The notes below the pieces were generated by a model. That model was not told where the DNA came from. It worked only from the letters and a program-made list of their open reading frames with translations, and made no database searches. The position numbers and the translations under genes are program-made. From NCBI GenBank assembly GCA_038659295.1, contig JASNGC010000003.1, positions 186,001 to 250,000 of the forward strand: a DNA stretch of 64,000 bases, in the 5' to 3' direction. The stretch's first letter is position 1; every line of letters starts with the position of its first letter. Shown here in pieces: positions 15,972 to 56,429 of the stretch. The stretch is from Enterocytospora artemiae (Eukaryota > Microsporidia).

Positions 15972-17201
15972 ATGAGCTTCAGGGATGAATTAAATAAATT
16001 CTTTGAAAACTCCAGAAAGAAATTGAAAAGCTCGGACATCACAATATGCATGGGTAATGAGGCATGCGACATAGACTCGTTCATTAGTTCTTTAGTCATA
16101 TCAATGCATGAAAAGTGCATCCATGTTGTAAACATGAGAAAAGAAATTCTGGAAGCCAAGGGAGATCTAATGTTTGTCTTAAAATACTTCGAGATCTCTT
16201 TGGATGATCTGATCTATCTTGAGCGTCCAGTGGGAGATTTCTCGACAGAAGCAAGAAAATTAGGTACCATCTTCAAATCAGGTGATTTGGAATATAAGCT
16301 GAACGATAAGAACATCAAGCTAATGATCTTGGACCATAATGAGCCTATCATTGAATTGAAAGATGCTGCCATCGATCTCATTATAGATCACCATCCACTT
16401 TCTGGATCTGCGCTGAAAGCCAGGAGGGTTTATGTGGATATTGATATAGGATCATGTTCTACACTTGTTTCCAAATTCATTGGACATTCTTTAACATCTA
16501 CAAAAAACAACAAAAACCCTGACTTTGTGTCTAATTTCTTCTGTGAACACATTGCCAGGCTGTTAATTGTCCCAATTTTTCTAGACACCAAGAAACTATC
16601 GTCCATCGCCAGCCACTTTGATAAGGGAGAGTTTAAAAAATTGAAAAGTAAAAGTGGGATGAAGATGAAGGAAATTAGATCTATTCGCAAAAGCATTAGA
16701 AAAGCGCGTTTAAACGACTCCAACCTTCCAAGTGAGGTTATTATGCAGAAGGATTACAAGGAATATCACTATCGTGGGCTGACTTTTGGATGTGCCACTG
16801 TAAAGTACGATTATGAGAAGTGGGTGGACCGGGAAATGGAGGAGTATGGCAAGAAGGGGGCCAAGAATGGGGGTGTGTTTTTTGAGGCCTACCTGAATCA
16901 ATTTCGTCGAGATCACGGATTGGACTTCCTATTTGTGAACAGAAAAGCTAAAGGTTTGAGATACATTATTGTCGTGAATTGCATGCTGGAAAAGCTGATT
17001 GCTGATGAGCATGGATTTAAGCCCATTAATTACAAGGGTTTGAAATATTATTCCATCAAGGTATCTCTTTCTAGGAAGGTTCTGATGCCACTTGTACAGG
17101 ATACTCTTGACAAGGTGAATTTGAGTATTCCTGAAGCCCGAAAAACTGGAAATATTGATTTACAACAGATAAAAGAGGCTATTGAGAAGAAAAATTCTTA
17201 A
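15972..17201 (+). CDS. PPX1: DHH-family exopolyphosphatase (PPX1/Prune type)
   Basis: A 409-residue phosphoesterase. Metal-binding motifs of the DHH superfamily are present in order: GNEACDIDS (28-36, Asp33 and Asp35), the DHN motif (121-123), the signature DHHP (139-142), and a following Asp-rich strand VDIDIGSCSTLV. The C-terminal half carries the DHHA2 domain, with basic FRRDHG... and SLSRKVL substrate segments. Yeast Ppx1 cuts inorganic polyphosphate from the end; Prune proteins share the fold, so the exact substrate remains open. The ATG is preceded by CCCC (actctccccacaaATG). A divergent promoter is shared with BRF1 (217 bases). The stop codon overlaps an AATAAAT signal. Confidence 0.88.
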   Translation: MSFRDELNKFFENSRKKLKSSDITICMGNEACDIDSFISSLVISMHEKCIHVVNMRKEILEAKGDLMFVLKYFEISLDDLIYLERPVGDFSTEARKLGTIFKSGDLEYKLNDKNIKLMILDHNEPIIELKDAAIDLIIDHHPLSGSALKARRVYVDIDIGSCSTLVSKFIGHSLTSTKNNKNPDFVSNFFCEHIARLLIVPIFLDTKKLSSIASHFDKGEFKKLKSKSGMKMKEIRSIRKSIRKARLNDSNLPSEVIMQKDYKEYHYRGLTFGCATVKYDYEKWVDREMEEYGKKGAKNGGVFFEAYLNQFRRDHGLDFLFVNRKAKGLRYIIVVNCMLEKLIADEHGFKPINYKGLKYYSIKVSLSRKVLMPLVQDTLDKVNLSIPEARKTGNIDLQQIKEAIEKKNS

Positions 17202-19042: not shown

Positions 19043-19313
19043 TTGTTCAATGTGGCAATCTAAAATTCAAATAAATATTGTTTAAAGATTAGAATATTGA
19101 TCAGATACAAGAAATCTTTTATATGGATACAGCATTATGTACTATATGTGTCACAAGAAAGCCAACTAATCTTGAAGGATGTCTATGTCCATAGTATCAC
19201 GAGATTCTATCAGGGCACACTGGACAATTCATTGGAATTCAGGACTTAAATTTCTACCATCCAAATCACCATTTATCTTCACTTTAATTTTTTCTAAAAT
19301 TTTTAAAACCCAA

Positions 19314-21533
19314 ATGAATGATTCAAACTCCTTGGAAGAAGAGTCGCATCTGTCACTAAATATATCTAGTTTTTCCGAAGGGTCCAGCCCAGATTCTGAT
19401 GTGGAGGCTGAATCTATCTATTCAAATGATTATTTGGACGAATCTAATGAAGGGATTGAGATGAATTCGATAAATAATATATTTCTGGAAAATAACAATG
19501 ATGTGGTAGATGATGGTTCAATCCATACAGAACTTGTAAATAAGTTAATTAACTTTATTAATCAGAAGTATACAAAAGCGATTAGAGATATGTGTTCTGA
19601 GAACTTGGAGAGTATTGTAATTGATTACTTGGAGTTGAAAGATTTTTACGAAGAAGTAGATGAAAACCCAGAAACTTTCCTTGAGACACTTCAAGAAGCG
19701 TTAACAAAATCTACCTTGAAGTATTTTCCAAATTACAATCAGATTAAACCCACGATTCATCCTAGAATTGTCAATTTGCCGGTTATCGAAGAGTTAAGAG
19801 GACTTAGAAATTGTCATCTTAATAAGTTAATCAGAATCCATGGTGTAGTAACTAGAAGATCTGGCATATTTTCCCTGTACAACATTGTCAAATACACCTG
19901 TTTGAAGTGTAAATGTACATTTGGCCCGTTCATAGGGAAAGATTTTTCCAAGATATATCCTTCCAACTGCTTTGAGTGCCAATCAAGGGGTCCTTTTGTA
20001 GTCAATTCGACGGAGACGGTTTATAAGGACTTCCAAAAGATTACAGTTCAAGAAGTTCCTGGTACGGTCCCACCGGGAGCACTTCCCCGTTCAAAGGAGG
20101 TGCTTCTCTATTTTGATCTTATCGATAGCTGCAAGCCAGGAGACGAGGTGGATGTTGTGGGTGTTTATAAGAATAATTTTTCACTTAGTTTGAATATTAA
20201 AAACGGATTTCCAGTATTTAATACCGTGATCGAATGCTCTTCTCTAACAAGGAAGGAGATAACTCAGTGTGAAATTACAGAGGACGATATTAGGGAGATA
20301 AGGGACTTAGCAAAGAAACCTAATATTAAAGAGATTCTAATAAACAGTGTTGCTCCTTCTATATATGGCCACAAGGATATCAAAACTTGTATATTGTTGA
20401 GCATGCTATCGGGTGTACCGAAGGAGAAGTCTGGAATGAGAATCCGAGGAGACATTAACGTTCTGTTAATGGGAGACCCTGGAACGGCAAAGAGCCAGTT
20501 TTTGCGGTTTATTCAGCAAACCTCCCACAGAGCTGTTCTTGCCACTGGGCAGGGGTCGTCCAGTGTAGGGTTGACAGCATCTGTTAGGAGAGATCCAGTT
20601 CTAAAGGAATGGACTCTGGAGGGAGGAGCTTTAGTTCTGGCAGATAGTGGAATATGCTGTATCGATGAGTTTGATAAGATGAATGAAAATGATAGAACGA
20701 GTATTCATGAGGCTATGGAACAACAGTCTATTTCTATTTCTAAGGCAGGAATTGTTGCATCCTTGCATGCCAGATGCGCAGTTATTGCAGCAGCAAATCC
20801 TGTTCGTGGCAAGTATAATCCAGCATTAAGCTTTTCGCAAAATATCAATCTAAGCGATCCAATCATTTCCAGGTTTGATCTTCTGTGCGTCGTTAAGGAC
20901 ATCATCGATGAAGCCGAAGATGCTAGAATGGCGAAATTTATACTGAATTCACATCAGAGGGATTTATCCAGCAACAATCACAATCCAGTGTCGATTGATC
21001 AATCTCTTCTAAAGAAATATCTTCTTTTTGCTAGGAATAATTATCATCCAAAAATTCCAGAATTTGAAACAACCAAAATCTCCCATTTATATTCTGATTT
21101 AAGGAAAGAATCCATGCATTCTGGAATTCCTATTACGGTTAGGCACATCGAATCGATCGTACGAATTTCTGAAGCGTTTGCAAAGATGAGATTGAGCAAT
21201 GTTGTCTCCAAATCAGACATTGACCAATCTATTGCAATCACACTACAGTCATTTTTATCGGCTCAGAAATATTCAATCACAAAGCAACTTAAGAAGAAGT
21301 TTAGTAAGTATTTCGAGGAAAATAATGATGATCTACTGGTATATATCCTTAAGAAAATGTTTAACGAGGTTGCTGATTTCCATTTAAATTGTGTCTCCAA
21401 GGTTGATTTTGTCAACAGGTGTAAATTTTCTGAAATAAATTTGTCGGATAGTTTTTTTTGTAGCGAGAGATTTGACTACGAGGGATTTGTATTAGAGGAT
21501 GGGAATATTTTGAAGAAAAGAATAAATTATTGA
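19314..21533 (+). CDS. MCM2: Replicative helicase subunit MCM2
   Basis: Subunit of the hexameric MCM2-7 helicase. I take the ATG at 19314 (739 residues), preceded by CCC (aaaacccaaATG) and giving the acidic Ser-rich N-terminus expected of MCM2. An upstream in-frame ATG at 19179 would add 45 residues of unrelated hydrophobic sequence. The zinc finger is Cys196/199/219/222. MCM2-specific sequence includes SRGPFVVN.TE, the segment PRSKEVLLYFDLIDSCKPGDE and NGFPVFNTVIE. Walker A is GDPGTAKS (387-394), then CIDEFDKM (Walker B), and the arginine finger is ISRFDLL. All ATPase motifs are intact. It lies 271 bases downstream of the ORC1/CDC6-like gene on the same strand. Confidence 0.95.
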   Translation: MNDSNSLEEESHLSLNISSFSEGSSPDSDVEAESIYSNDYLDESNEGIEMNSINNIFLENNNDVVDDGSIHTELVNKLINFINQKYTKAIRDMCSENLESIVIDYLELKDFYEEVDENPETFLETLQEALTKSTLKYFPNYNQIKPTIHPRIVNLPVIEELRGLRNCHLNKLIRIHGVVTRRSGIFSLYNIVKYTCLKCKCTFGPFIGKDFSKIYPSNCFECQSRGPFVVNSTETVYKDFQKITVQEVPGTVPPGALPRSKEVLLYFDLIDSCKPGDEVDVVGVYKNNFSLSLNIKNGFPVFNTVIECSSLTRKEITQCEITEDDIREIRDLAKKPNIKEILINSVAPSIYGHKDIKTCILLSMLSGVPKEKSGMRIRGDINVLLMGDPGTAKSQFLRFIQQTSHRAVLATGQGSSSVGLTASVRRDPVLKEWTLEGGALVLADSGICCIDEFDKMNENDRTSIHEAMEQQSISISKAGIVASLHARCAVIAAANPVRGKYNPALSFSQNINLSDPIISRFDLLCVVKDIIDEAEDARMAKFILNSHQRDLSSNNHNPVSIDQSLLKKYLLFARNNYHPKIPEFETTKISHLYSDLRKESMHSGIPITVRHIESIVRISEAFAKMRLSNVVSKSDIDQSIAITLQSFLSAQKYSITKQLKKKFSKYFEENNDDLLVYILKKMFNEVADFHLNCVSKVDFVNRCKFSEINLSDSFFCSERFDYEGFVLEDGNILKKRINY

Positions 21534-32711: not shown

Positions 32712-33845
32712 ATGAATTTCATTTCATTCATTACTGTTTGCTGCTGCTATGTCAACGAAACATCTAGTATAAAGCCAAATCCATTTGATAAATATTTAAC
32801 AAAGCAGCAAGAAACCTCAGCGGTTGTATCAAGTCCTCAATCTTCTACGATGTCGTTTTCTTCTGTAGATACTTCAAAATCTGAAAGTTATAGTTCAGAT
32901 TTCTATGATTCACCTGCATACAATAGTTATTTTGCCAAATCCAATAGAACCAGTACCTATCCTACATCATTCAGCCAAGACGACCAATATGTTGAAAAAA
33001 ATAAGTCGTATCAGAAAAAAAAAGATAATATTTTAGAGTCAACCAAATCAAATTTACTAGAACCAATGTGTCCTGTTGTCCCGGAGCCATTGTGTCCTGT
33101 TGTCCCAGAACCAATGTGTCCTGTTGTCCCAGAACCAATGTGTCCTGTTGTCCCGGAGCCATTGTGTCCTGTTGTCCCAGAACCAACATGCCCTATTATA
33201 CCAGAACCACTATGTCCTGTTATATCAAAGCCAATTGTTCAACAATCACCTTACTGTAAACCTATTTATCAAAATCCATATATTCATTTAAATTCTAGCA
33301 TTAGTACCTCATACTATCCCTCTAACAATTATTGTGCTGATGTTTGTAGTAAGAATAACTGTGTAAATGACTACCATTTATGCTCTAATGGATGCCCCGT
33401 AAGGATTAATAGACAAGCTTATCAAAGATATATCCTTCGTAATCCTCATTTGCGGTCTCAAGGCAACACCGTAGTTAACAATGATCGATTTGGATATGTT
33501 GACAGTGATATCTTTGTTTCAGTTGAAACTTTATTAAGTGGTATTAAAACACGCAGGCACTATTTTCTCTGGTGGAATTACTATACCTCAGTAACATCAT
33601 TTGAAAAAAACATTTCTTTCTCTTATTTATTTTCTGTAATTAAAAATTGCAGATCTGATAAGCCATTAATTCATGTCCACCGGGAATTTATGTGTGGAAA
33701 TATCTTTGGACAGTATTATGACAAAATGATCTTGAGTGCCTGTACTGATCGGTTAGAATGGCTTTATGATGAATTTAATCGCTGTGAAATCAATGATCCA
33801 TTTTTTTCACATCCAGATATTTCCTGTGTGATCTCTACCAACTAG
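32712..33845 (+). CDS. Putative secreted protein with seven Pro/Cys octapeptide repeats
   Basis: A 377-residue protein beginning with a short hydrophobic stretch (MNFISFITVCCCYV) that resembles a signal peptide. A Ser/Tyr-rich region follows (about 20-110), then seven tandem copies of E-P-x-C-P-V-V-P (residues 117-172). After that comes a Cys-rich region (CADVCSKNNCVNDYHLCSNGC) and a possibly folded C-terminal domain (about 220-377) with aromatic-rich RRHYFLWWNYYTS and scattered Cys. Cys/Pro-rich repeats of this kind suit disulfide-linked spore-wall or polar-tube proteins, but no homology to a named family is claimed. The ATG lacks a CCC motif. It lies upstream of the RNA polymerase gene on the same strand. 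Confidence 0.7.
   Translation: MNFISFITVCCCYVNETSSIKPNPFDKYLTKQQETSAVVSSPQSSTMSFSSVDTSKSESYSSDFYDSPAYNSYFAKSNRTSTYPTSFSQDDQYVEKNKSYQKKKDNILESTKSNLLEPMCPVVPEPLCPVVPEPMCPVVPEPMCPVVPEPLCPVVPEPTCPIIPEPLCPVISKPIVQQSPYCKPIYQNPYIHLNSSISTSYYPSNNYCADVCSKNNCVNDYHLCSNGCPVRINRQAYQRYILRNPHLRSQGNTVVNNDRFGYVDSDIFVSVETLLSGIKTRRHYFLWWNYYTSVTSFEKNISFSYLFSVIKNCRSDKPLIHVHREFMCGNIFGQYYDKMILSACTDRLEWLYDEFNRCEINDPFFSHPDISCVISTN
33060..33227 (+). repeat. Seven tandem 24-bp repeats encoding EPxCPVVP
   Basis: Seven in-frame 24-base units (33060, 33084, 33108, 33132, 33156, 33180, 33204) encode EPMCPVVP, EPLCPVVP, EPMCPVVP, EPMCPVVP, EPLCPVVP, EPTCPIIP and EPLCPVIS. The first five are nearly identical in DNA. The last two have diverged, which suggests recent expansion from the 5' side. 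Confidence 0.95.
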
Positions 33846-34042: not shown

Positions 34043-37000
34043 ATGTCTTTAACTCGTGATGATATTAGAGATATCTTTTTGAGTGGATTAGTTGGCCGGT
34101 ATAACGATAGTGTCATTTTAAAAGCACTAGAGACAGATATTCTGGTGTATTTTCCATCTTACCACACCTCTTCAACATTTCTGAGTGAGTGGGGCCAGCT
34201 CTTTGAACAATTTGATGCTGGATACACTCTTTTTGTATCTGAATCAATAGATCTTAAAAAGATGGTGTATTCAAGTAGGAAGAACATTTATGAAAATACA
34301 AATAACAAGTTTAATGAGAGTGCTCCAAGAAAATGTATCTTCATAAATCCCAAGGAGCTTCCTTATTACGTTGAAAAGAACAAACCATGTAATGCTATTG
34401 CTCGTTTGAATGATGAAAACATAAATATATCCTCGGTTGTTTTTGATGATGAAACTTTTCATCTTGTTGATCAACTGTCAGTGGATATTCCAATCAAGCT
34501 AGCATTTACCTCATCACCAATAATATTTTATAACTATTTTGAAGGGACCTTTAAAGTAGCAAACACCACAGATATTGACAATACAGATGGTAAATTCGCT
34601 TTTGAGTGCTTTTATTCTCCATTAGACCATTCAAATGGATATTATAAACACTTAATAGAAACCAGTGAAGTAGTGTATTATAAGACTGATTTAGACATGA
34701 ATGCCGGTGAATCAAATGTGCTCAAACAAGATTTTGCGGGGATCAAATACCAAAGTAATGCTGTAATAGATGATTTATCGGCTAGTCATTCTACAGCCAA
34801 AGCCATTGATCTGGTTACTTCCCTACTTCATAGGCAGTTGTTTGACTTCAATTATGTTTCCCATTTTATTGATATTAGTAATACACCTATATCCCAGTAT
34901 GTGTCAGACAGATTAATGTGCTTAATTAAGTGTATATATTCTCTGAATGGAGAGGAATGCTGTGTATGTTTTTCATTGGTGAATGAGATGAATTTGATAT
35001 ATTCGATATTGGAAAAGAGAGTAGTTAAAAATTATAAAAATGATCAGAGTGATATCGATAGAGATAAATTTATTGATCGCAATATTATCAGTGACATCAT
35101 TACCATGGAAAATATCAAAACGGCCTCTGATAGTGGTGGGTCAGAATCGATGCATTTGGAAGGAGTTTTTAAAAATACTTCTGTCCCTGTTAACATCACT
35201 TTTATTTCTTTTCCACCTTATGGATACAGTAAGATTGGTTCTACAGTCATATTCTTTGATTTCTGTCCGTCTCTTGAAAAGTACAATAAAATTTTCCTTT
35301 TGCCAGAGGGGTTTAAGGTCAATTTAGATCGACTTATAGAATTTGATCAAAAGGTCGAGACTGAAATAAGGCCTACAATAAAGAGTAGGAAGTTAGAAGT
35401 ATATACGTATACAATCTATGGAAATGTAAATAGAATAAAAAGAAAGACAAAAGATTTGGAAATTGTAAGGAACATAGCATGTAACACATCCAGTAGTGAT
35501 ATATGTAGCAATACATACAAGACATTTATTCGTGTGACTACTACCTGTAATTTTGGCAAGGTTAACACAGCAATTTACCTTTCTCAAATATTATCCACAC
35601 CAGTATTAGCACCGCACCTTCTCGATGATAGAGATGCAAAGTGTGAATTCTCAGAAATAAAATATGGAACTGTAACTGGATATGAAGAATTTGTTCTCAA
35701 AGAAAAGTTACATGGTGACAATAATGTAGTCTATTTTAAAATGTTCCAGCTTTCTATCATTAATGGATATCATAAATTGATCATTCATTACGATATTATT
35801 GATCGTATACTGATGACAACCAATTGGGGTACAAATGATGTTAAGCTGTATATAGTATTGAAGTATCCCCCAAAAGTATATGAGCATGAGAGGACGGATG
35901 CACATACCATTAATGATGAGATTTACTATACCACCAGGCTTTCCAATGATCAGTTTCGTTATTTCGACGATTCCTTCGATATCTCCATTACTATACCTAA
36001 TTCCTTTATTGGCTCGAGTCCTGTAGATGAAATACATAGTGTCAATCATCTAATACGTATTCTAAGTAGATATAGTGATAATATCTATATAAGCAGGGTA
36101 GTGGAGGTAAAGTTAACTAATTTACCACTTAAAGAAGTCTTAGAAAGAGTAAGTGGGTGTAACAGTACCTCCATTAATGGCATCAGCACTCTTAGTGATG
36201 ATTCCTTTGGCATATATTATCTATTACTCTGCTTATTTTCCAGGAAAGGCAGATTTTTGGTTAATAAGATCTCCCCCTTAGATTTAGAATATCTATTAGA
36301 AATAAATATTGAAGAATTTTGTAAGAGAATGGAAGCTGTATTGAGGTTTGGAATGGAAAAAGAGGCAATAAAGGAAGAAATAGTATATTTATACAATAAT
36401 GTGAATGGCAATACTGAGAATGATAGCCGCAGTTTATTTGTATTGACTAGATCTATTATAATTACCCCGCTAAGAGTCTATTATAATTATGAGATGCCCA
36501 CAGAATCCAATAGAGTACTAAGGTATTTCGACCCCGATAGATTTTTACGAGTCTCTATAAGGGATGAAGATACAGAATACAGGTATCAGAATGATTTATC
36601 GACAAGCAGTGAATATATTTACGATTATCTTAGGAGATTAATGCTGAATGGAATATTCATAGGAAATAGAAAGTATTTCTTTTTAGTTATGACCTCGTCA
36701 CAGATGAAAGAACATAATGGGTGGTTTGTAAGCACATATATTTCTGAGACTGGTAACTTAATTATTGGCACGGATTACATTAAGTCTTGGCTAGGAAAAT
36801 TTACAGCAATTAATAATATTGGTAAGTATGCCATGAGAATTGCTCAGGCATTTTCTTCGACAACTCCAACCCTAGATGTAGCGAATTACTTGCTCATAGA
36901 AGATATCCATAGAAATGGTTATGACTTCACCGATGGTGTGGGATTGGTTACGGTGGAATTGGGCAAGACCATTGTGGAGTGTTTTAATAGGAATAAAAAC

Positions 37001-40000
37001 GTTTCCATAAATTATCTACCATCAGCATTCCAGATCAGATATGCTGGTTGCAAGGGAGTGATAGTTGTGCAACCATTCTTAAGTGACAAAAGTAGTAAGG
37101 AATATAAGGAATGGACAGACAGGAATAGAGTTTCCAGAGAATTAGTCTGCTGCGATTTGATTATTAGAAGAAGTATGAAGAAATTCGACTCTAGCCATAT
37201 TAATTTAGAAATCATTACTTATTCAAAATCTACTCCTTATTACTTAAATAGACAGGTTATTATGATACTAGAAGGGCTGGGGATTCCATCCTATATCTTT
37301 ATACAGCTACAAGATGCATATGTTATCCAGGTATTGCAGGAAATTGTCAATGATACGGGCCGATTTATTTATAGAAGCTGTAATATCTTTCCAAAGCCTA
37401 TAATCAATACAGACCATTCCTTCTTTAGAAAGTTGCTATATCCCTGCTTTAACAATGTACTAGATGATATTAATAAGAAGTGTAGGATAAAGATAGATCA
37501 GGGAAGATCAGCAATTGGCGTTATCGATGAATTGAATATACTAGAGGAGAATGAGGTATTTATGATGTATAAAGAGGAGGAGGCAAGTGATTTCATGACC
37601 AAGGCATATCATAGTGCTGCCAGTGGCAATGTCACTTCCTACGGTATTTGGAAGGTGCCCTTGGGTACTGCTCTTGTATCTAAAAACCCAACCATGCATC
37701 CTGGGGATTTACGCATAGTAACATGTGTGGATCGGCCGGAGCTACATTATCTGAAAGATGTTGTGGTGTTTAGTCAGAAGGGTGGTAGACCGGTGTTTAA
37801 TGAGTGTTCTGGAAGCGATTTAGACGGAGACATATTTAATATAACATGGAATGCTAAACTGATTCCAAAGGTACTGTTTAAACCTTATGATTATAACAAT
37901 GTAGGTGGTGATGCTAGTGCTGGTAGTCGTAGTAACTACATGAGCTCTCTTACTAAAAAAGTTGTATTGAACTCTGATATTGTCAACTTTTTTATTAGAC
38001 ACATGAGAACTTATCAACTTGGACTAATTGCCAGCTCACATATGGCCAACTCAGATAAATATTCTATATTTTCTCCGAATAGCCTAAGATTGTCCGAGCT
38101 GTTTAACAAATCAATAGACTTCGTTAAAACTGGATCATCAGCCACAATTAGCGAGGATCTATTACCTAATGAATATCCTGATTTTATGGAGTTGTCTCCA
38201 GGATACTATTCTGGCAAAGCGTTGGGGCAGTTGTATAGAAGGTCTCATATAAGTATGAATACAGAAGGAAGTTGTGAATGTGGGGTATGCTTTAACAGGA
38301 TATGCAGTAGTTTGAATGAAACACAAGAAACAATATTAAGGGGATCCAATGTAATATTGAGATACATCGATAAATATGATAATGATTGGGATAGTAGTGG
38401 CCAGGGGGCCAGTGTCACGAGAAATGGCACTAGGAAGGACTCCGCCAATTATCACCTTGATATCCTATCACTTTTATCCAAATTCGGTTTAAAAGATGAG
38501 GGATCTTTGTTTACTAGTAAGGATCCTACTATACAGAAAGAACTAAGAAATACTGTCCGAGCATACACTAACAACACCAGCATATTTACGTATGATTTTG
38601 ATGAATGTAGAGATAAAATCCAATCCAACATGTTCCTTGCTAATGATAGTTATAGGTTAAATGGATTTGTAAGGAAGGTAGTCATGGACAGCAATACTTG
38701 TTGGGATGAAGGAAAATACTCTGGATGTGTATTCAACTCCAACATATTGTTGAAAAATGATGTTAGTGATGATGAAGTATTGAGTGATGCACTATATAAC
38801 GATCCAGTTACTAATAATGTTATTCATGGTAAGATTCTTGCAAGAGCTAATGTAAGCCGTTTGAATTCCTTTTTTTATTCTCTAGAGTCTCGCAGAGTTC
38901 CAATTTTTAGAGATGCATTTAATTTGTTACTAATAACAGAAACCTATTCTATAGATGAAATTGATAAGGTGGTAGATCTGCTAGAGCATATTAATACCAA
39001 ACTTGGTATTGATTATAATTCAAGTAGCGGCAATGTAGGAAATATACATAATAATTCTTTGACTATTGATTTCACTAGAGCACTTTTTTCTTTAAATAAC
39101 AATGCTTTATTTTCTCTGGGAGTTGCTCTTTGCTTAGATACTGCTATTTTTAGGAAGCTGAGTTTATTTTTTTCTTCTCCATTAAAACTATCTAGACCAG
39201 AGCGAGCCCCAAGAATCTGTCGGAGACAAACGTTAATAGTATCTGGGATGCTGGATGAAAACGAAGAGGTTGAATTCTTACGAAACAAGACAACTTGTTT
39301 GGACAGTATTAATATGGATAATGGCAAGATGAACCAATACACTATTAGTGACACATCTTATCATTCAGTTATATTAAAAAATCCTGGAAGTTGTAATAAA
39401 GATTATTATAGAGATGAGTGTAGAAATACTCTTATGAATATCCTTCATGCAATAGATACCCAATCACTACTAACAAAATTTCCAGAAATCAGAATCTCAC
39501 TCAAATTTACTCCAGGAAAGGTTTATATTAAAAATATTCCTGTGGTCCTATATAATTCTGGAATGAAAGTTAGAGATGTATTGAAAAAGTTTATAGTTAA
39601 TGAGGAATATGAATGCACTGGTATTTCTATTAACAGCGGTATAGCTGTCGACAATATATGTTATTTCAAAGTTTCTTTAGTATTCAATGGGTTTAACTAT
39701 CAACTGATCTATGAGGTGCCAAACAGCGTTAAACCAATTAATAATGACCCACACATCTCTTCAACTGATAATTCTATATTCATTGACCCTGATTTCTTTA
39801 ATCACAATCTACCTTCTGGAATTTTCAAGGAAAATATGGATATTGGAAGTATATTTATTGTTAATAACCATGAAAATGACTTGATAATCAAAATTGAAAG
39901 AAGCAGTATGATTTATCAAAAAAATATTGATCAAGAAGTTGAATCGACCAATAAACATCGGTATGATGACTCTGTTGGTACTGATTTAATTGATAACACC

Positions 40001-40438
40001 CTCGTTCAAAACAAATTTAGGAAAAATATTAGGATTACTCAAAAAACTGACAAGGAAAGAATCAAGTCAGCTATGGATGGCTTTAACATAGATGATGTGC
40101 ATCGATTAGTTTTACAGTACTTAAAATTATTACATGCTGAGAATATATCCACAAAAACTGAATTGGTTAAATTAGAAAAGATTGTCGAATCGAAATTTAA
40201 AGATGGAGTAATTCGGGAGGAAGTGTATGAAATAGACTTTAACAGATTTGGTCAGAATCGGAAAAAAAATCAAAACACAACCAACTATAATAATGCTGAC
40301 AATCACAAACTACCTATATATCTTAAAGAAACAAATGTTTTCCTACGTAAAGAGTGTTTTGTTAAGAAGACTGATTTCAGTGGCTTCTATAGAATATTCT
40401 CGAAGTTGTGGAAGGCATACACATACGATATAATATAG
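34043..40438 (+). CDS. RNAi-type RNA-dependent RNA polymerase with a putative degenerate Dicer-like helicase N-terminus
   Basis: A 2131-residue protein, taking the ATG at 34043 after CCCC (tctcacccctgcATG); the frame is open from 33950, with other ATGs at 33983 and 33998. The catalytic double-psi barrel of cellular (QDE-1/RDR) polymerases is unmistakable: ALVSKNPTMHPGDLRIV, then VVVFSQKGGRP and NECSGSDLDGDIF with Asp1259, Asp1261 and Asp1263. These enzymes make double-stranded RNA that feeds Dicer and Argonaute. It is about twice the usual length. I read the first 520 residues as an inactivated superfamily 2 helicase of Dicer type: SYHTSST (39-45) at the Walker A position, VVFDDETFHL (132-141) at DECH, LAFTSSP (153-159) at LTAS, VCFSLVNEMNLIYSIL as motif IV, and STVIFFDFCPSLEKY (400-414) at the motif V region, then a DUF283-like VTTTCNFGKVNTAIYLSQIL (about 498-517). 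The ~800 C-terminal residues are unassigned. Confidence 0.93.
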   Translation: MSLTRDDIRDIFLSGLVGRYNDSVILKALETDILVYFPSYHTSSTFLSEWGQLFEQFDAGYTLFVSESIDLKKMVYSSRKNIYENTNNKFNESAPRKCIFINPKELPYYVEKNKPCNAIARLNDENINISSVVFDDETFHLVDQLSVDIPIKLAFTSSPIIFYNYFEGTFKVANTTDIDNTDGKFAFECFYSPLDHSNGYYKHLIETSEVVYYKTDLDMNAGESNVLKQDFAGIKYQSNAVIDDLSASHSTAKAIDLVTSLLHRQLFDFNYVSHFIDISNTPISQYVSDRLMCLIKCIYSLNGEECCVCFSLVNEMNLIYSILEKRVVKNYKNDQSDIDRDKFIDRNIISDIITMENIKTASDSGGSESMHLEGVFKNTSVPVNITFISFPPYGYSKIGSTVIFFDFCPSLEKYNKIFLLPEGFKVNLDRLIEFDQKVETEIRPTIKSRKLEVYTYTIYGNVNRIKRKTKDLEIVRNIACNTSSSDICSNTYKTFIRVTTTCNFGKVNTAIYLSQILSTPVLAPHLLDDRDAKCEFSEIKYGTVTGYEEFVLKEKLHGDNNVVYFKMFQLSIINGYHKLIIHYDIIDRILMTTNWGTNDVKLYIVLKYPPKVYEHERTDAHTINDEIYYTTRLSNDQFRYFDDSFDISITIPNSFIGSSPVDEIHSVNHLIRILSRYSDNIYISRVVEVKLTNLPLKEVLERVSGCNSTSINGISTLSDDSFGIYYLLLCLFSRKGRFLVNKISPLDLEYLLEINIEEFCKRMEAVLRFGMEKEAIKEEIVYLYNNVNGNTENDSRSLFVLTRSIIITPLRVYYNYEMPTESNRVLRYFDPDRFLRVSIRDEDTEYRYQNDLSTSSEYIYDYLRRLMLNGIFIGNRKYFFLVMTSSQMKEHNGWFVSTYISETGNLIIGTDYIKSWLGKFTAINNIGKYAMRIAQAFSSTTPTLDVANYLLIEDIHRNGYDFTDGVGLVTVELGKTIVECFNRNKNVSINYLPSAFQIRYAGCKGVIVVQPFLSDKSSKEYKEWTDRNRVSRELVCCDLIIRRSMKKFDSSHINLEIITYSKSTPYYLNRQVIMILEGLGIPSYIFIQLQDAYVIQVLQEIVNDTGRFIYRSCNIFPKPIINTDHSFFRKLLYPCFNNVLDDINKKCRIKIDQGRSAIGVIDELNILEENEVFMMYKEEEASDFMTKAYHSAASGNVTSYGIWKVPLGTALVSKNPTMHPGDLRIVTCVDRPELHYLKDVVVFSQKGGRPVFNECSGSDLDGDIFNITWNAKLIPKVLFKPYDYNNVGGDASAGSRSNYMSSLTKKVVLNSDIVNFFIRHMRTYQLGLIASSHMANSDKYSIFSPNSLRLSELFNKSIDFVKTGSSATISEDLLPNEYPDFMELSPGYYSGKALGQLYRRSHISMNTEGSCECGVCFNRICSSLNETQETILRGSNVILRYIDKYDNDWDSSGQGASVTRNGTRKDSANYHLDILSLLSKFGLKDEGSLFTSKDPTIQKELRNTVRAYTNNTSIFTYDFDECRDKIQSNMFLANDSYRLNGFVRKVVMDSNTCWDEGKYSGCVFNSNILLKNDVSDDEVLSDALYNDPVTNNVIHGKILARANVSRLNSFFYSLESRRVPIFRDAFNLLLITETYSIDEIDKVVDLLEHINTKLGIDYNSSSGNVGNIHNNSLTIDFTRALFSLNNNALFSLGVALCLDTAIFRKLSLFFSSPLKLSRPERAPRICRRQTLIVSGMLDENEEVEFLRNKTTCLDSINMDNGKMNQYTISDTSYHSVILKNPGSCNKDYYRDECRNTLMNILHAIDTQSLLTKFPEIRISLKFTPGKVYIKNIPVVLYNSGMKVRDVLKKFIVNEEYECTGISINSGIAVDNICYFKVSLVFNGFNYQLIYEVPNSVKPINNDPHISSTDNSIFIDPDFFNHNLPSGIFKENMDIGSIFIVNNHENDLIIKIERSSMIYQKNIDQEVESTNKHRYDDSVGTDLIDNTLVQNKFRKNIRITQKTDKERIKSAMDGFNIDDVHRLVLQYLKLLHAENISTKTELVKLEKIVESKFKDGVIREEVYEIDFNRFGQNRKKNQNTTNYNNADNHKLPIYLKETNVFLRKECFVKKTDFSGFYRIFSKLWKAYTYDII

Positions 40439-49558: not shown

Positions 49559-51793
49559 TTACAAATCATGTAGCTGCTCGTATGTTAATTTAAAAGACAG
49601 AGGCTCAAACGCCTCTCCTCCACCAGAGTAGAATTTTGAAAAAAACTCAATCCAGTTTAGTCGCAATGCATGCAAGCATGAGCTAAGCCCTTCAAGACCT
49701 ATCAGCAAGAGCATGGTGGCTACAACATAAACTGGGCTGAGACAGATTGCCCAAATCCAACTCTCATTCCCTATGGTAAATTGATGCAGAACTGATGTCA
49801 GCTGGACATGAGCCAGTGAAACTGCCCAAAGTCTTAGATATGAGCTTGTGTTTGAAATAAGTCCAAGCCCAAACTCAATTGTGTGAATTCCAGAATTTAT
49901 CCATAAATCAAGCATCTGGTCACTTCTTACTTTTCTTTTGCCTATCAGGTACATGGGTTTTGTGAAAAACATCCAGGGAATACAAGCTATTATTACTGCT
50001 GCTATGGACAGTTGTACATACATTTGGTATGGAAACATCTCGTCCCGAATATTAAATGGGTCGGTATACATTCCTATCAGGGTTGTAATTATAGAGGGGT
50101 GGTTTACTGTGACCAACCACTTGTAAATACATAAAAATACCAGGTATCCCAGAAACATTGTAAAAGCTATTGTTTGGGGTATGCTAACACAGTAGAGAGT
50201 TAGTAAGTCATTTTCATAAATTGAGTTTGCCAATGATATTATCGATCCCAAAAGCATATGAACAAATCCTAAAATCAAACTTAGCTTCATCTTCAAGGAA
50301 TTTGTAAAGGCCATCTTGTTTGCTGCATGGTGCCAAATTGGATCCAGACCAAAGGGATATGTCCTATTGGCAGTATTAAACTGGGAATCAAATAGCGCTA
50401 TTGGCCTGGATGCAAAGTCTGAATAAATAAAACCAAACCATATTGATGAAAATGAGCATGTTAGAATTACATATCTTCCTTCTAGAATTATCTGTAATAC
50501 CCCACAATTATGATTTAATTTATCGAATTTATAAATCATATATCCAGACATTAATAGCAGGATTAATCCATGAAGTACATCTCCAAACATTACCCCGAAC
50601 ATTAATGGAAATGTAAATATCATGAAAATGCCGGGGTTGATCTCTTGATACTTTGGTATTCCGAAGACATTTGTGAGATTTTGAAAGGCTTCGGTAAATT
50701 TGTTATTAGAAAATGATGTTGGAACTATTTCCTCCTCTCTCTTCTTGGTTACTTCATAATAAAATCTACATTCTTCAAATGATTTCAACTTTTCCAAATC
50801 CTCCAAATCCTTTGTTCTAATCCAAGCATCCCCGACAAAGCTCGATCCTAAATCCTGTCTTTCTCCAATATCTTCTATTCTATCAATGATTTTGTATTTT
50901 GGCGACTGATAGGTCAGTTTATTTAAAGTGCTATATATTTGTCTTTCTCTGTAAATTAGCTCCATCCAGGTCTTATACATCCTTTTTACAGTCTCTAACA
51001 CCTCACCATGCTTTTGCTCAATTTCCTTGCAAATACTTGTTTCTCTTTCAAAAATATCTTCCAAATAATCCAAGCCACTCAATTTGTCGTTAGTTGTGGG
51101 GACTTCTCCATTTAACAATGCCTTTGAATCATAAACACGCCCACCCATGGTTTCAATGATATTAATGACTGTTTGGGTTGGATATTTACCATATACACAG
51201 ACTATATATACCGTCTTTTGCTTATCTGCATATTTTAGATCGACATCGTCCATTTTAAGGAAAATATTTCCCCTGAGAATCCCCCTTAGAATTTTTTTAA
51301 TTAAAAACTTCTTATCTCTATCAACAATTGCTGAAATGAAGTTGTAAGAAATTTTACCTCTCTTGGACCTTTTTCTGTCCGAATTAGAGTTGTTTTGTGC
51401 AGAGAAGCAATCCTCATGTGGAGATACGGTAAATCTTCCACAAAAATTTGATGATTCCATTGCCATCGCATAATTGCCTTCATAAATTTGACGAAGGTTC
51501 TCATGCTCCTTTCTTAAACATCTTAGCTCCAGAATCTGTTTGTAGCTGGTATTAATAGATTCTTCAGCTTCTTTGAAGGACATCGCTTCTGAAATCTCCT
51601 CAAATGTATCAAACTCCTTTCTCATGTACTGTAATCGTTGCTCTAACTTTTCTATTAGGATCAAGCTAATATTTTGCTGATGGCTCGATTTAAATTGTAT
51701 CAACTCTGTATTTCCCAACTTCTCTAGTGTTTCTCTGACATTTTTGTCTCTAATATAAAGAGAGATGGATGTCATTTCATCTGATCTCAACAT
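49559..51793 (-). CDS. VPH1: V-type proton ATPase subunit a (VPH1/STV1)
   Basis: A 744-residue membrane subunit forming the proton half-channels of the vacuolar ATPase. The N-terminal cytosolic domain (about 1-350) contains coiled coils (ERETSICKEIEQKHGEVLETV). The C-terminal domain has about eight spans, with the conserved GVMFGDVLHGLILLL (family: MFGD.GHG) and the essential Arg in SNTSSYLRLWAVSLAHVQL, which releases protons from the c-ring. It is shorter than yeast Vph1 (840) through trimmed loops. No CCC motif precedes the ATG. It would acidify vacuolar compartments, possibly including spore organelles. Confidence 0.94.
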   Translation of the reverse strand: MLRSDEMTSISLYIRDKNVRETLEKLGNTELIQFKSSHQQNISLILIEKLEQRLQYMRKEFDTFEEISEAMSFKEAEESINTSYKQILELRCLRKEHENLRQIYEGNYAMAMESSNFCGRFTVSPHEDCFSAQNNSNSDRKRSKRGKISYNFISAIVDRDKKFLIKKILRGILRGNIFLKMDDVDLKYADKQKTVYIVCVYGKYPTQTVINIIETMGGRVYDSKALLNGEVPTTNDKLSGLDYLEDIFERETSICKEIEQKHGEVLETVKRMYKTWMELIYRERQIYSTLNKLTYQSPKYKIIDRIEDIGERQDLGSSFVGDAWIRTKDLEDLEKLKSFEECRFYYEVTKKREEEIVPTSFSNNKFTEAFQNLTNVFGIPKYQEINPGIFMIFTFPLMFGVMFGDVLHGLILLLMSGYMIYKFDKLNHNCGVLQIILEGRYVILTCSFSSIWFGFIYSDFASRPIALFDSQFNTANRTYPFGLDPIWHHAANKMAFTNSLKMKLSLILGFVHMLLGSIISLANSIYENDLLTLYCVSIPQTIAFTMFLGYLVFLCIYKWLVTVNHPSIITTLIGMYTDPFNIRDEMFPYQMYVQLSIAAVIIACIPWMFFTKPMYLIGKRKVRSDQMLDLWINSGIHTIEFGLGLISNTSSYLRLWAVSLAHVQLTSVLHQFTIGNESWIWAICLSPVYVVATMLLLIGLEGLSSCLHALRLNWIEFFSKFYSGGGEAFEPLSFKLTYEQLHDL

Positions 51794-52556: not shown

Positions 52557-55500
52557 TTATCTCTTGATCAACGACAATAGCCTGCAAAATAAATGGACAT
52601 TCATCATATCCTCTAAGTTCCCGAGCAATATTAATCTTTTCCGTGCGCGCGTCAAAGCAACATTCAGCCTCTCTTCAGAAATATGGCATTCTGTGTTTGA
52701 AATTGGATCAAACACAACCACAATAACATCATCCTCACTCCCTTGGAATTTATCAATTGTATAGACCGGGTTTTCTGTAATGGCTTGGGTTAAGGTCACC
52801 TGAGAGTTAAAATAACACAGAATAGTACATTTTGGAAGAGATTGAACAAATTCACAGTAGTCAATTTTTCTTGTGTCCAGGTACTCAACTGGCATGTCAT
52901 TCTCATCATCTATCCTGCCCATAACCATCTTATTAGAATAGAATAATATGTTACTCAATCTCATAATACACTCGCTCATTCTATACTGCATTTTTAACTC
53001 ACAATATTGCTCATCCATTCTTAGAAAGTACTCAAAAGCACTTGTCGATCCCCCTCTTATAGGTTTAATTTGCAGGTGATCTCCCACCATCACAAATTTA
53101 TCACAAAGTGATATTGGAATCATGGCAAGCAGCAGTCCTATCTGAGAACCTTCGTCAATCACACAATAGTCGAAACGTCTCTCCAGAAAAATAGGATCTT
53201 TAAGACTAAAACAGGTCCCAACCACCAAATCAACAGAATTGAATATTTCTCGAAGCATCTCAACTGAATTTGTCAACGGACATCCAGAAACCTTCTTTGA
53301 TTCACTTCCATGAATTGTGTCTACCAATCTGTCCAAATTATCATTCGCTTTGTAATAATTCACCCCTTCTAGTTTCGATAATAGATTTTCAATTGCCAAG
53401 TGTGTGTAACAAATTAATAGCACCTTCTTCTTATAAAAAATCAATACTTTGATTAGAAGTGCTATCAATGTACTCTTTCCAGTCCCAGGCATCCCATGGA
53501 TAATTTTATGCGTTTGGCAATTCAGTCCTGCAACTAAACCATTTCTCTGATCTTCATTTAATCTTGAAAAATCGGATTTATAACTATCTGGAATCTTTAT
53601 TGGCTTGTACATAACAGTCTGGGTGAGACAGTCCAATGTGCTTTTAGATGAATTGATTAGATCACAATTTAAATGAGATATATTAATTTTGTGAGGATTG
53701 GTATATTTAATATCATAGTTTTCTGCAATTTTTAAGTCTGCATTGATATCTATAGACTCCCCACTTATTTCGATATCTTCGAACGGGTCACTTCCATCTT
53801 CTAAATCAGCTTCTTTACCATAACTAGTCGTACATATATTTTGCGAGATCAATTTTGAGTCCAAGGTTTTTATTTCATCAGGTAAATCTAAGCCATACTC
53901 CTGTCCAGGTAGGATAAAAGGCATTGACTTTTGAGCATATCTTGGATATGCAACATACAATAACGAATACAGACTAAATTTGTAAAATATTTCTGAGTTA
54001 TCCCTGTAAAAATATACTTCTGATTCTGGAATTATTTTACCCGATAGTTTAATGTGGAAATAGATACAGGGGTTATATTGTTGTTCTAATGCAGATTTGC
54101 CAACAGTATTTATATCCATTCTGTCACATAAAATATCCTCATTTACTACCTGAATATGATCATATTCTTTTATAGAAATAATCCTTCCTTTACAAATGCT
54201 TTTTTTTACGTTTGAATTAATAACAACCCAATCATCTACATTTGGTGTGTCATCCATCTCATTCTTATTGGCCCTAAGTACTATAGTTACTGGTTGTTCT
54301 CCATTTTCACCTTCATTAAATCCGAAAAAACTGCAATTTGCATCCTCCAAAAAGCCTAATTCCGTTTTGTTTTCTATAAAAGCATGAATATACTTATCCT
54401 TTACATCTGATTCCTTTTCAAGTAATTCAAGTTGTATTCTTAAGAAATGGCTTGGATTCAACTTTCGAATTTTATTGTAGATATAACATGGACTGTCTGA
54501 TAAGCAGTCACACTCTCCAACGGATCCTTGGCAGGCAATTATATTTCTTTTAATAACAATGTCTCTAATTTCGGAGTGCTTAATCTTAACATCAAAGAAG
54601 CTCCCGGTCAGTGAGTAGAATATCATTGGTCTTTTAAAATAAACCTCACTGTCAGTTTGTGAATGCCTATCCTCAACTATTGTAGAATGACTTTTGATAT
54701 TTTCAATATTTTTGGTGTGGTCATCTATTTCTACACTCTCAATTTTCAATCTGTTACTAAATTCTTCATACAGCATCATAGTATACAATAGTACCTGTGC
54801 TCTATGTTCAATACTTGGATATTTGCCAGTTTTAATTTCTATGACATGATCCTTGCTGATACAATCGATTTTTCCTCTTAATCCAAAATTTGTTGAGACA
54901 AGTGGATACTCGATGTCAGTCACCACTAAGTTACCAGAAACAAACTTCAAAATGCTTTTAACATGTCTTAATAATTCGTTTAAAATCTGTTTTTCTGTAA
55001 TATTGCAGGAAAACAGTTCAATTGTCCTCTTATTAATAATTTCAAATAAAATATTTTTAACATATGGAAATGATAGTACATCATTAATATTGTAAACTCC
55101 AATACCATCGCTTAGAAAGACATTGTCGTCATACAAACGATCTTTCAGGTTTTTGGAAGAATTATTAAACTTCCCAGATGAATTGCTCTTGGTACATTGA
55201 TCAATCATCTTTAATACTTTGGTTTTGTCCTTTAAAATTCTCTGAATAGTTTCGTGTATAATGGTTCCAACCACCAATGCCGAGTTTTTCCATTTAAATC
55301 CAATATCCGCAACTTGTTTGTTCATTAATACCATATTACCACATTTTAAGCCTTGCAAGAAGGTGGTTATAGATATAATGTCATCGTGAATAAATAGCAA
55401 GTAGTTAAAGCTATCCACATAAATAGTGTTGGAATCTATATTTATAGAATGGTTGTGACTAGATGGTACACTATTATCTTGACAATAACACTCTAATACT

Positions 55501-56429
55501 GAAATACATATCCCCATCTTCCAATCTATTCTAGTCCACTCACCACTTACACAAACTTTCTTATTTTCTTCATATAAAATAACAAATCCGTCATGTCGAT
55601 CAATTTTGTCAATTATGAGTCTGTAGAAGTTTCTCAAATCAACAGACATATTTTTTGCATTATTGTTTGTACTTTTAAATACCTCTTTATGGCTCATAGG
55701 TTCATCACACTCTGTAGAATTCAAATCGATGGAGTTTGAAAATGAAATACTAAATGCTTCATCCTCAGAATCAACCATATGCTCGTTTGTGGTCAATGGG
55801 CATGGACCATCTAAACATGGTGGGGGATAACTGGCACTATCTCCATGCACAACCCGAGAAGAGTTTAAAGTACTACAAATGATCGATGGTTCTGAAGAAC
55901 TCAATATACAAGAGATATCAGAGAATTTGGTTTTCAGGTTGGCCGAGATTTCGCCCTCTGAAAAATCTGATTTGTTAGTTGGTTCAACAAATGAGATAAT
56001 TTCAGCTTGTTGTTGTCCATCTGTAGTTCCAAAATTCTTCTCCAAATTGTTGTAGGAAGAATCAGAATCCATAAGAAGAGTTCCAATCTCGGTATTTTCT
56101 AAAAATGAGGAGGCAGCCTCTGAATTTGCTTTGCATGAACTTTCCTCTCGACTTAATAAGTTAAGTTCTGATGGATTATACGAATTCTCGTGGTTGCTTT
56201 GTGAGATTTTTTCTTTGATCTGGGTATTTTTACTAATTTCAGATTCTCTACTGCTGCTGATTATAGACCTCTTCTCATCATTGCCTGTAGATTCTGTATA
56301 TTTCTGTAATTCTTCATAAAATTCAAATGGATTCTCCTTATTAAGACAAATTCTCTTTCTTGATTGAGTGGCATTGCAATCACTTTCTGAATCCTTCCAT
56401 TGCACGTTTTTAACATTCCTATTGTGCAT
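52557..56429 (-). CDS. DNA2: DNA2 nuclease-helicase
   Basis: A 1290-residue enzyme for Okazaki-flap removal and DNA end resection. After a ~280-residue Ser-rich acidic N-terminus comes the RecB-type nuclease: FGLRGKIDCISKDHVIEIKTGKYPSIEH (Asp and Glu-x-Lys at about residue 530), with a Cys cluster (CQGSVGECDCLSDSPC) for the Fe-S cluster typical of Dna2. The C-terminal superfamily 1 helicase has Walker A GMPGTGKST (about 976-984), motif II IDEGSQIGL, GDHLQIKPI, QYRMSECIMRLSN, KFQGSEDDVIVV and LNVALTRARKRLILLG. All catalytic motifs are present. CCC precedes the ATG (gataaacccatATG). Confidence 0.94.
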   Translation of the reverse strand: MHNRNVKNVQWKDSESDCNATQSRKRICLNKENPFEFYEELQKYTESTGNDEKRSIISSSRESEISKNTQIKEKISQSNHENSYNPSELNLLSREESSCKANSEAASSFLENTEIGTLLMDSDSSYNNLEKNFGTTDGQQQAEIISFVEPTNKSDFSEGEISANLKTKFSDISCILSSSEPSIICSTLNSSRVVHGDSASYPPPCLDGPCPLTTNEHMVDSEDEAFSISFSNSIDLNSTECDEPMSHKEVFKSTNNNAKNMSVDLRNFYRLIIDKIDRHDGFVILYEENKKVCVSGEWTRIDWKMGICISVLECYCQDNSVPSSHNHSINIDSNTIYVDSFNYLLFIHDDIISITTFLQGLKCGNMVLMNKQVADIGFKWKNSALVVGTIIHETIQRILKDKTKVLKMIDQCTKSNSSGKFNNSSKNLKDRLYDDNVFLSDGIGVYNINDVLSFPYVKNILFEIINKRTIELFSCNITEKQILNELLRHVKSILKFVSGNLVVTDIEYPLVSTNFGLRGKIDCISKDHVIEIKTGKYPSIEHRAQVLLYTMMLYEEFSNRLKIESVEIDDHTKNIENIKSHSTIVEDRHSQTDSEVYFKRPMIFYSLTGSFFDVKIKHSEIRDIVIKRNIIACQGSVGECDCLSDSPCYIYNKIRKLNPSHFLRIQLELLEKESDVKDKYIHAFIENKTELGFLEDANCSFFGFNEGENGEQPVTIVLRANKNEMDDTPNVDDWVVINSNVKKSICKGRIISIKEYDHIQVVNEDILCDRMDINTVGKSALEQQYNPCIYFHIKLSGKIIPESEVYFYRDNSEIFYKFSLYSLLYVAYPRYAQKSMPFILPGQEYGLDLPDEIKTLDSKLISQNICTTSYGKEADLEDGSDPFEDIEISGESIDINADLKIAENYDIKYTNPHKINISHLNCDLINSSKSTLDCLTQTVMYKPIKIPDSYKSDFSRLNEDQRNGLVAGLNCQTHKIIHGMPGTGKSTLIALLIKVLIFYKKKVLLICYTHLAIENLLSKLEGVNYYKANDNLDRLVDTIHGSESKKVSGCPLTNSVEMLREIFNSVDLVVGTCFSLKDPIFLERRFDYCVIDEGSQIGLLLAMIPISLCDKFVMVGDHLQIKPIRGGSTSAFEYFLRMDEQYCELKMQYRMSECIMRLSNILFYSNKMVMGRIDDENDMPVEYLDTRKIDYCEFVQSLPKCTILCYFNSQVTLTQAITENPVYTIDKFQGSEDDVIVVVFDPISNTECHISEERLNVALTRARKRLILLGNLEDMMNVHLFCRLLSLIKR

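Follow-up and report, generated by a model that had tools for sequence, protein, structure and literature searches.

The window analysed here, a stretch of 64,000 nucleotides from the microsporidium Enterocytospora artemiae (contig JASNGC010000003.1, positions 186,001 to 250,000), carries at 34043..40438 on the forward strand the gene of an RNAi-type RNA-dependent RNA polymerase (RdRP), a single uninterrupted open reading frame which, read directly from the window, begins with an ATG at 34043, ends with a stop codon at 40438 and encodes 2131 aa. In one 35-row alignment the first methionine is listed as invariant; a second alignment, built with a shorter query, does not list it as such. That the gene encodes an RNAi-type RdRP, as the initial annotation proposed, is borne out by the sole strong Pfam match of the protein, the catalytic core PF05183 at aa 807-1400 (36461..38242, forward strand; E=1.8e-141, 473 bits, above the cut-off, 1-581 of the 582 positions of the model), and by the catalytic DLDGD seen in the sequence at aa 1259-1263 (37817..37831, forward strand); the longer SGSDLDGD is present as well, at aa 1256-1263 and thus one residue off from the 1257-1264 given earlier. 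The PDB relatives of the protein are RNA-dependent RNA polymerases, including RDR2 and QDE-1, and in the whole 3.0-Mb, five-contig assembly this gene is the single PF05183 match. Pfam finds no RNase III domains in the protein, and RNase III lies in a separate gene on contig C2. On both sides of the core, the protein resembles the helicase-RdRP fusions of other eukaryotes: the RdRP N-terminal region at aa 441-800 (35363..36442, forward strand), which has a weak PF25358 match (E=0.08), agrees with the post-helicase region of the fusions at 98.7% (E=3e-16, profile-profile), and the first part of the C-terminal extension at aa 1401-2131 (38243..40435, forward strand) is also common to the fusions, with 97.8% (E=1e-12) for 37 rows against 21 fusion C-termini and a confident alignment over 92 columns. 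The other window genes named by Pfam are ordinary neighbours, namely an M16 peptidase (586-3846), SMC (4175-7066), DHH-DHHA2 (15972-17198), MCM (19179-21530), the V-ATPase 116-kDa subunit (49562-51793), Dna2 (52560-56429) and SNF2 with DBINO (61273-63894). Directly upstream of the RdRP gene, a 377-aa frame (32712-33845, forward strand) contains 6.8 tandem copies of a 24-base unit, giving repeats of the kind CPVVPEP(M/L); at a guess, it is perhaps a secreted or spore-wall protein.

A sequence search with aa 1-800 at E<=10, over 4934 candidates, returned no N-terminal relatives, because this part of the protein diverges too fast for word-based search, and the relatives were therefore gathered via the core. 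The core search gave 105 proteins, from which 41 with 35-51% core identity (P0001-P0042, minus the plant protein P0023, which was dropped) form the microsporidian set; 12 of the 41 carry microsporidian names, including Hepatospora, Vittaforma, Nosema, Vairimorpha and Binucleata, and the others are assigned by similarity. The core starts between aa 700 and 1000 in 33 of them. The N-terminal profile has 40 rows including the window's protein (P0017 and P0036 were left out for their short N-termini), while residues were counted over 36 complete N-termini, again including the window's protein and with 11 named, as P0001, P0008, P0026 and P0039 are incomplete there. Mean pairwise identity is as low as 17-20% over aa 1-440, and aa 441-560 evolve equally fast (19%).

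By conventional searches the front of the protein bears no trace of a helicase. At E<=10, Pfam gives no helicase family for the window's RdRP nor in scans of 4 and 22 relatives, and a 35-row profile finds no helicase among PDB sequences. For profile-profile comparison, a fusion profile was assembled from 27 RdRPs whose N-terminal helicase bears motifs of the GxGKT, DExH and QSRGRAR types; they were taken from 33 scanned proteins, with P0105-P0108, P0128 and P0132 left out. A Dicer profile was made from 25 entries out of 91 listed Dicers (P0141, with no P-loop match, was dropped). The fusion helicase matches the 25 fungal Dicers at 100% (E=3.7e-95) and is thus of Dicer type. Against the fusions, the profile of the whole microsporidian N-terminus reaches 98.9%; since this value contains the linker shared by RdRPs, the N-terminus was compared in separate pieces. 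With the 40-member profiles, hhalign then matches aa 1-200 to the RecA1 half of the fusions at 85% (E=6e-6) and aa 280-440 to the RecA2 half at 92% (E=7e-7), while the mismatched pairings of halves give 0-4% and the matching halves of the fungal Dicers give weak values of 2% (RecA1) and 16% (RecA2). The window's sequence alone scores 1.5% for RecA1 and 0.3% for RecA2 against the same fusion profiles, which is not significant. The kinship that the initial annotation expected from profile-profile comparison is thus visible in the family profile and not in the single sequence. The degenerate RecA1-like half occupies aa 1-162 (34043..34528, forward strand) in register with the fusions, and the degenerate RecA2-like half, with the segment that follows it, aa 285-440 (34895..35362, forward strand). 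RecA1 followed by RecA2 upstream of the RdRP core is the order of the fusions, as detected here by profile-profile comparison only and, for RecA1, depending on profile depth. Both halves agree with the fusions in order and in register, which supports a descent of the N-terminus from a Dicer/RIG-I-type helicase, as far as sequence comparison can tell, and makes the fusions the right comparison for the microsporidian protein, as had been suggested.

The matches were controlled with shuffled profiles, for which match columns only were used without realignment; the columns were moved either individually or as ten-column blocks, with 200 rounds of each kind for every one of three pairings. Under these settings the observed values are 73% for RecA1, 91% for RecA2 and 80% for both halves against the whole helicase, and the observed score was equalled or exceeded by 0 of 200 shuffled profiles in each of the six sets (0 of 1200 overall). 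The nearest shuffle scored 31.8 against the observed 35.5; it belongs to the block shuffles of RecA1, among which one shuffle reached 53%. Reversed profiles scored 9-19. When the window's sequence was removed from the profile, RecA1 stood at 63% and RecA2 at 92.5%; in twenty random halves of the family RecA2 ranged over 68-95% and RecA1 over 2-92%, so that the RecA1 result depends on the depth of the profile. Profiles built over the whole length of the proteins, one from 22 microsporidian RdRPs and one from 16 fusions, match at 100% with a score of 1700, which comes mainly from the polymerase. Their Viterbi path runs over columns 20-1800 against 32-2126 and places motif I on motif I; a stricter realignment retains RecA2 and what follows it (columns 246-1484 against 364-1657) and drops RecA1.

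The N-terminal segments named in the initial annotation were found at their places and in their order, and motifs I, Ia, II, III, IV and VI stand in register with the fusions (all on the forward strand). At the position of motif I the protein has YFPSYHTSS (aa 36-44, 34148..34174) where the Brachionus fusion P0044 has YLPTGSGKT, so the Walker A sequence is absent; motif Ia aligns with YTLFVSES (aa 61-68, 34223..34246); motif II with VVFDDETFH (aa 132-140, 34436..34462), LIFDEIHHA in P0044; motif III with TSSP (aa 156-159, 34508..34519), TASP in most fusions; motif IV with CVCFSLVNEMNLIYSIL (aa 307-323, 34961..35011); and motif VI with TVIFFDFCPSLEKY (aa 401-414, 35243..35284), in which the QSRGRAR arginine finger is absent. 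In this register VCFSLVNEMNLIY faces LVFVRSRKTARLL, and FFDFCPSLEKY faces LFDPLWSLVQYVQSRGRAR. Several scaffold positions are kept throughout the family, for example Y36 (34/36), P38 (32/36), F134 (31/36), T156 (32/36), P159 (35/36), S288 (33/36) and F405 (32/36). The catalytic motifs are lost, as had been claimed for the single protein: within the first 700 residues of the complete N-termini, neither GxGK[ST] nor QSRGRAR occurs in any of the 36. At the aligned Walker A column K is found in 4/36, and the commonest residue at any of the six columns aligned with TGSGKT reaches at most 13/36; at motif II, D is found at 135 in 18/36 and E at 136 in 6/36, with DE kept by a few sequences such as P0014, P0015 and P0022. 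Moreover, motif I carries a signature of the fusions. A proline directly before its TG is present in 26/27 fusions and 0/25 Dicers, and a tyrosine two residues ahead of this proline in 12/27 fusions and 0/25 Dicers; the fusion-type proline is found in 32/36 and the tyrosine in 34/36 of the microsporidian proteins. With the scaffold kept and both catalytic motifs in none, the RdRP N-terminus is, as judged from these alignments, a predicted ATP-dead derivative of a helicase-RdRP fusion, and a comparison with other microsporidian RdRPs, which the initial annotation had advised, finds the same N-terminus common to those sampled (36 complete N-termini).

Two further elements of the expected helicase are not detectable. 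Where Hel2i would be expected, the 122-residue linker of aa 163-284 (34529..34894, forward strand) gives 0.2% in hhalign, which is no detectable Hel2i similarity, the length of the gap alone being compatible with such an insertion. The DUF283-like segment claimed after the helicase did not hold up, as the family profiles of aa 440-620 and aa 485-585 both score 0.1%, with no detectable DUF283 similarity. A DUF283 fold at this place is rejected. The Dicer segment used for the comparison, P0131 aa 527-678 with the rows aligned to it, does contain Pfam Dicer_dimer, at 588-674; a profile-profile comparison of the intact fusions likewise found no DUF283, with 0.1% or less. The DUF283 search of the genome was silent everywhere, its controls included, and carries no information.

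As to the origin of the polymerase, a careful tree of the core was built with 14 microsporidian rows (13 of the 41 relatives and the window's protein), from which P0105, P0096, P0102 and P0080 were excluded for long branches or deep placement. The microsporidian rows stand beside the 15 rows of a Brachionus-type fusion clade with a support of 98/95, in which 12 rows have intact helicase motifs; of the other three, P0106 and P0043 have incomplete N-termini and P0048 has a damaged helicase. Nine named fungi and P0083 together form a group of ten at 92/89, and a second fusion group with Macrostomum, Bremia and Oopsacas lies elsewhere in the tree at 93/97. The fusion rows were partly gathered with a fusion helicase as query, so this sample is biased, and an AU test does not reject a grouping of microsporidia with fungi at 0.05 (p=0.061). 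When the two fusion groups are used as separate profiles (P0125 and P0080 left out), fusA gives 88% and 93% and fusB 58% and 85%; as equal-sized fusA samples overlap fusB, the comparison does not decide between them. A direct descent from the helicase of Dicer itself is disfavoured, with at most 16% against the fungal Dicers. The order of helicase and then RdRP seems to be inherited from the fusions, and this suggests that the microsporidian polymerase would come from the helicase-fused type known in rotifers, oomycetes, amoebae and cnidarians and not from the plain type of the sampled fungi.

The same genome also holds other genes of the RNAi pathway. The only Piwi match (E=9.6e-77) lies in a 756-aa frame with PAZ and Piwi, and a Dicer-like gene, a 1584-aa frame with RNase III stretches, is found on contig C2 (L005:1875-6629, reverse strand); with the RdRP, Dicer-like and Argonaute genes, three core RNAi proteins are present. 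For the 1584-aa Dicer, Pfam gives no helicase at E<=10, which fits a survey of fungal Dicers, where incomplete helicases are described in a microsporidian clade (PMC12663654). The sole hint of a decayed helicase in this Dicer is a stretch resembling motif V near aa 287-307 (EGIDYSRFKEIICFD), which scores 0.3-2.7% against the helicase profiles and is not significant. A genome search with P0044 returned the RdRP itself only. With the complete Dicer P0131, it returned three proteins that are DEAD-box helicases as judged from sequence; as this search missed the genome's own Dicer, it gives weak support to a lack of further Dicer-type helicases.

Fusions of helicase and RDR are described in earlier papers for Dictyostelium, oomycetes, Hydra and Nematostella (PMC4791657; PMC3661229), and according to the former they coincide with helicase-less Dicers, a fact whose significance its authors call unclear, the domain being absent from both proteins in many eukaryotes. 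Our sample covers Brachionus P0044, Macrostomum P0122, Bremia P0125, Oopsacas P0130 and others; Dictyostelium RrpA/B/C and the RDRs of Hydra and Nematostella, known from papers, lie outside it. The suggestion of a new architecture accordingly goes too far, for a helicase followed by an RdRP is already known, while the ATP-dead state in the sampled microsporidian proteins is new. With the fusions these share the order of parts, motif spacing, N-terminal linker, core and part of the C-terminus, but their helicase is much diverged and all 36 are without GxGK[ST] and QSRGRAR. A parallel is P0048, an RdRP of the Brachionus-type clade, whose N-terminal helicase also looks damaged: on inspection of the sequence motifs II and VI seem broken, and Pfam gives a weak match to ResIII (E=0.014); unlike the microsporidian proteins it keeps GAGKS, and it stands inside the fusion clade apart from them, so its loss was probably a separate one. 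Among the literature matches listed, no title or abstract reports a microsporidian RdRP with a degenerate helicase; in the passages of a paper on transposons in microsporidia, where the RdRP was sought with a Neurospora query, this domain is unmentioned (PMC7313128). That paper cites a 2018 study by Huang, which reportedly deals with microsporidian Dicer and Argonaute.

Other RNAi systems also combine a helicase of this type with an enzyme. The DExD/H domain of mammalian Dicer keeps its ATPase motifs conserved in sequence, unlike the microsporidian domain, and is joined to RNase III and not to a polymerase. In C. elegans DRH-3 works with RdRPs, as does Hrr1 with Rdp1 in S. pombe. The C. elegans RIG-I-type helicase DRH-1 works beside the RNAi enzyme Dicer (PMC11095941); in contrast to the microsporidian case it is a separate, ATP-hydrolysing protein. 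The best precedent is mouse Dicer, where the animals tolerate loss of the putative ATPase but not of the DExD/H domain, which locks the enzyme in a closed state (PMC9645528); this is likewise an RNAi-protein helicase with an ATPase-independent structural role. By analogy with mouse Dicer, we propose that the RdRP domain may act as a structural lid or RNA clamp.

More specifically, the N-terminus would be the dead descendant of a working helicase-RdRP fusion, kept as an ATP-independent RNA-gripping or structural lid, a reading to which we assign a probability of about 0.78. The ancestor would have been an RdRP with a working Dicer/RIG-I-type helicase at its N-terminus; the ATP-binding loop and arginine finger would have been lost no later than in the last ancestor shared by the sampled microsporidian proteins, both RecA halves being retained after the catalytic loss and presumably still folding as two RecA domains. 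Loss of the ATPase site with both halves kept indicates a role without ATP, and the same dead motor in the sampled relatives suggests that it still has such a job. Placed where RNA enters or leaves the polymerase, the dead domain may grip the single-stranded template or the newly made duplex, so that the product would pass to a Dicer lacking a recognisable helicase of its own; the putative binding could concern RNA or a partner, and a docking of Dicer on the dead domain is a guess. It is a tentative and rather doubtful generalisation that microsporidia keeping RNAi have no ATP-using Dicer-family helicase, that of Dicer being lost or past recognition and that of the RdRP dead, and that the dead RecA pair serves them as a clamp passing double-stranded RNA from polymerase to Dicer.

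The fast evolution of aa 1-440 (17-20% identity) and the vanished catalytic motifs could also mark a decaying helicase remnant with no present role. Microsporidian genomes readily discard useless sequence, which counts against such a remnant; since moreover the frame is open, the core begins at aa 700-1000 in 33 of the 41 relatives and individual positions are kept in 31-35 of the 36 sequences, we regard mere decay as quite unlikely. It is even harder to believe that the domain still binds or hydrolyses ATP via unusual residues: a few sequences have DE at motif II and 4/36 have K at the Walker A column, but GxGK[ST] and QSRGRAR occur in 0/36 and no residue at the TGSGKT columns exceeds 13/36, so this seems extremely improbable.

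Two further rival readings concern the identity and the origin of the domain. Neither Pfam nor PDB searches find a helicase in the window's protein, the profile or the scanned relatives, the single-sequence scores are insignificant and the RecA1 signal is unstable in subsamples, all of which would suit some other alpha/beta domain with coincidental motif matches; yet each of two separate segments matches its own helicase half, with order and register correct, 0/200 shuffles in any of six sets do as well, and both the Viterbi collinearity and the core phylogeny speak for the fusions, which makes coincidence very improbable. Alternatively, microsporidia may have made a fusion of their own, in which a helicase, for example that of their Dicer, was attached to the RdRP and decayed later. 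The own Dicer without a recognisable helicase and the AU test, which does not reject a core grouping with fungi (p=0.061), are in line with this, and Dicer-to-RDR transfer has been proposed for other lineages (PMC4791657). However, the helicase profile fits the fusions (85%, 92%) far above the fungal Dicers (2%, 16%), the Y.P signature is fusion-type, the core groups with the fusions at 98/95 and the C-terminus is partly common to them; a separate joining is thus unlikely, and descent from a working fusion is preferred. With this descent, some 440 front residues of microsporidian RdRPs that were blank in Pfam are accounted for, and a conserved pseudo-helicase on an RNAi polymerase offers a natural experiment on what this helicase does beyond the use of ATP.

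Two minor observations were made on the fusion proteins and other RdRPs in the course of the Pfam scans. In the Brachionus fusion P0044, aa 5-93 give a weak match, below the cut-off, to a RIG-I C-terminal-domain-like family (PF11648, E=0.00066). The helicase-RdRP P0104 has at aa 1251-1378 a poly(A)-polymerase-like domain, PF22600, with which P0122, P0132, P0133 and P0135 are listed as well.
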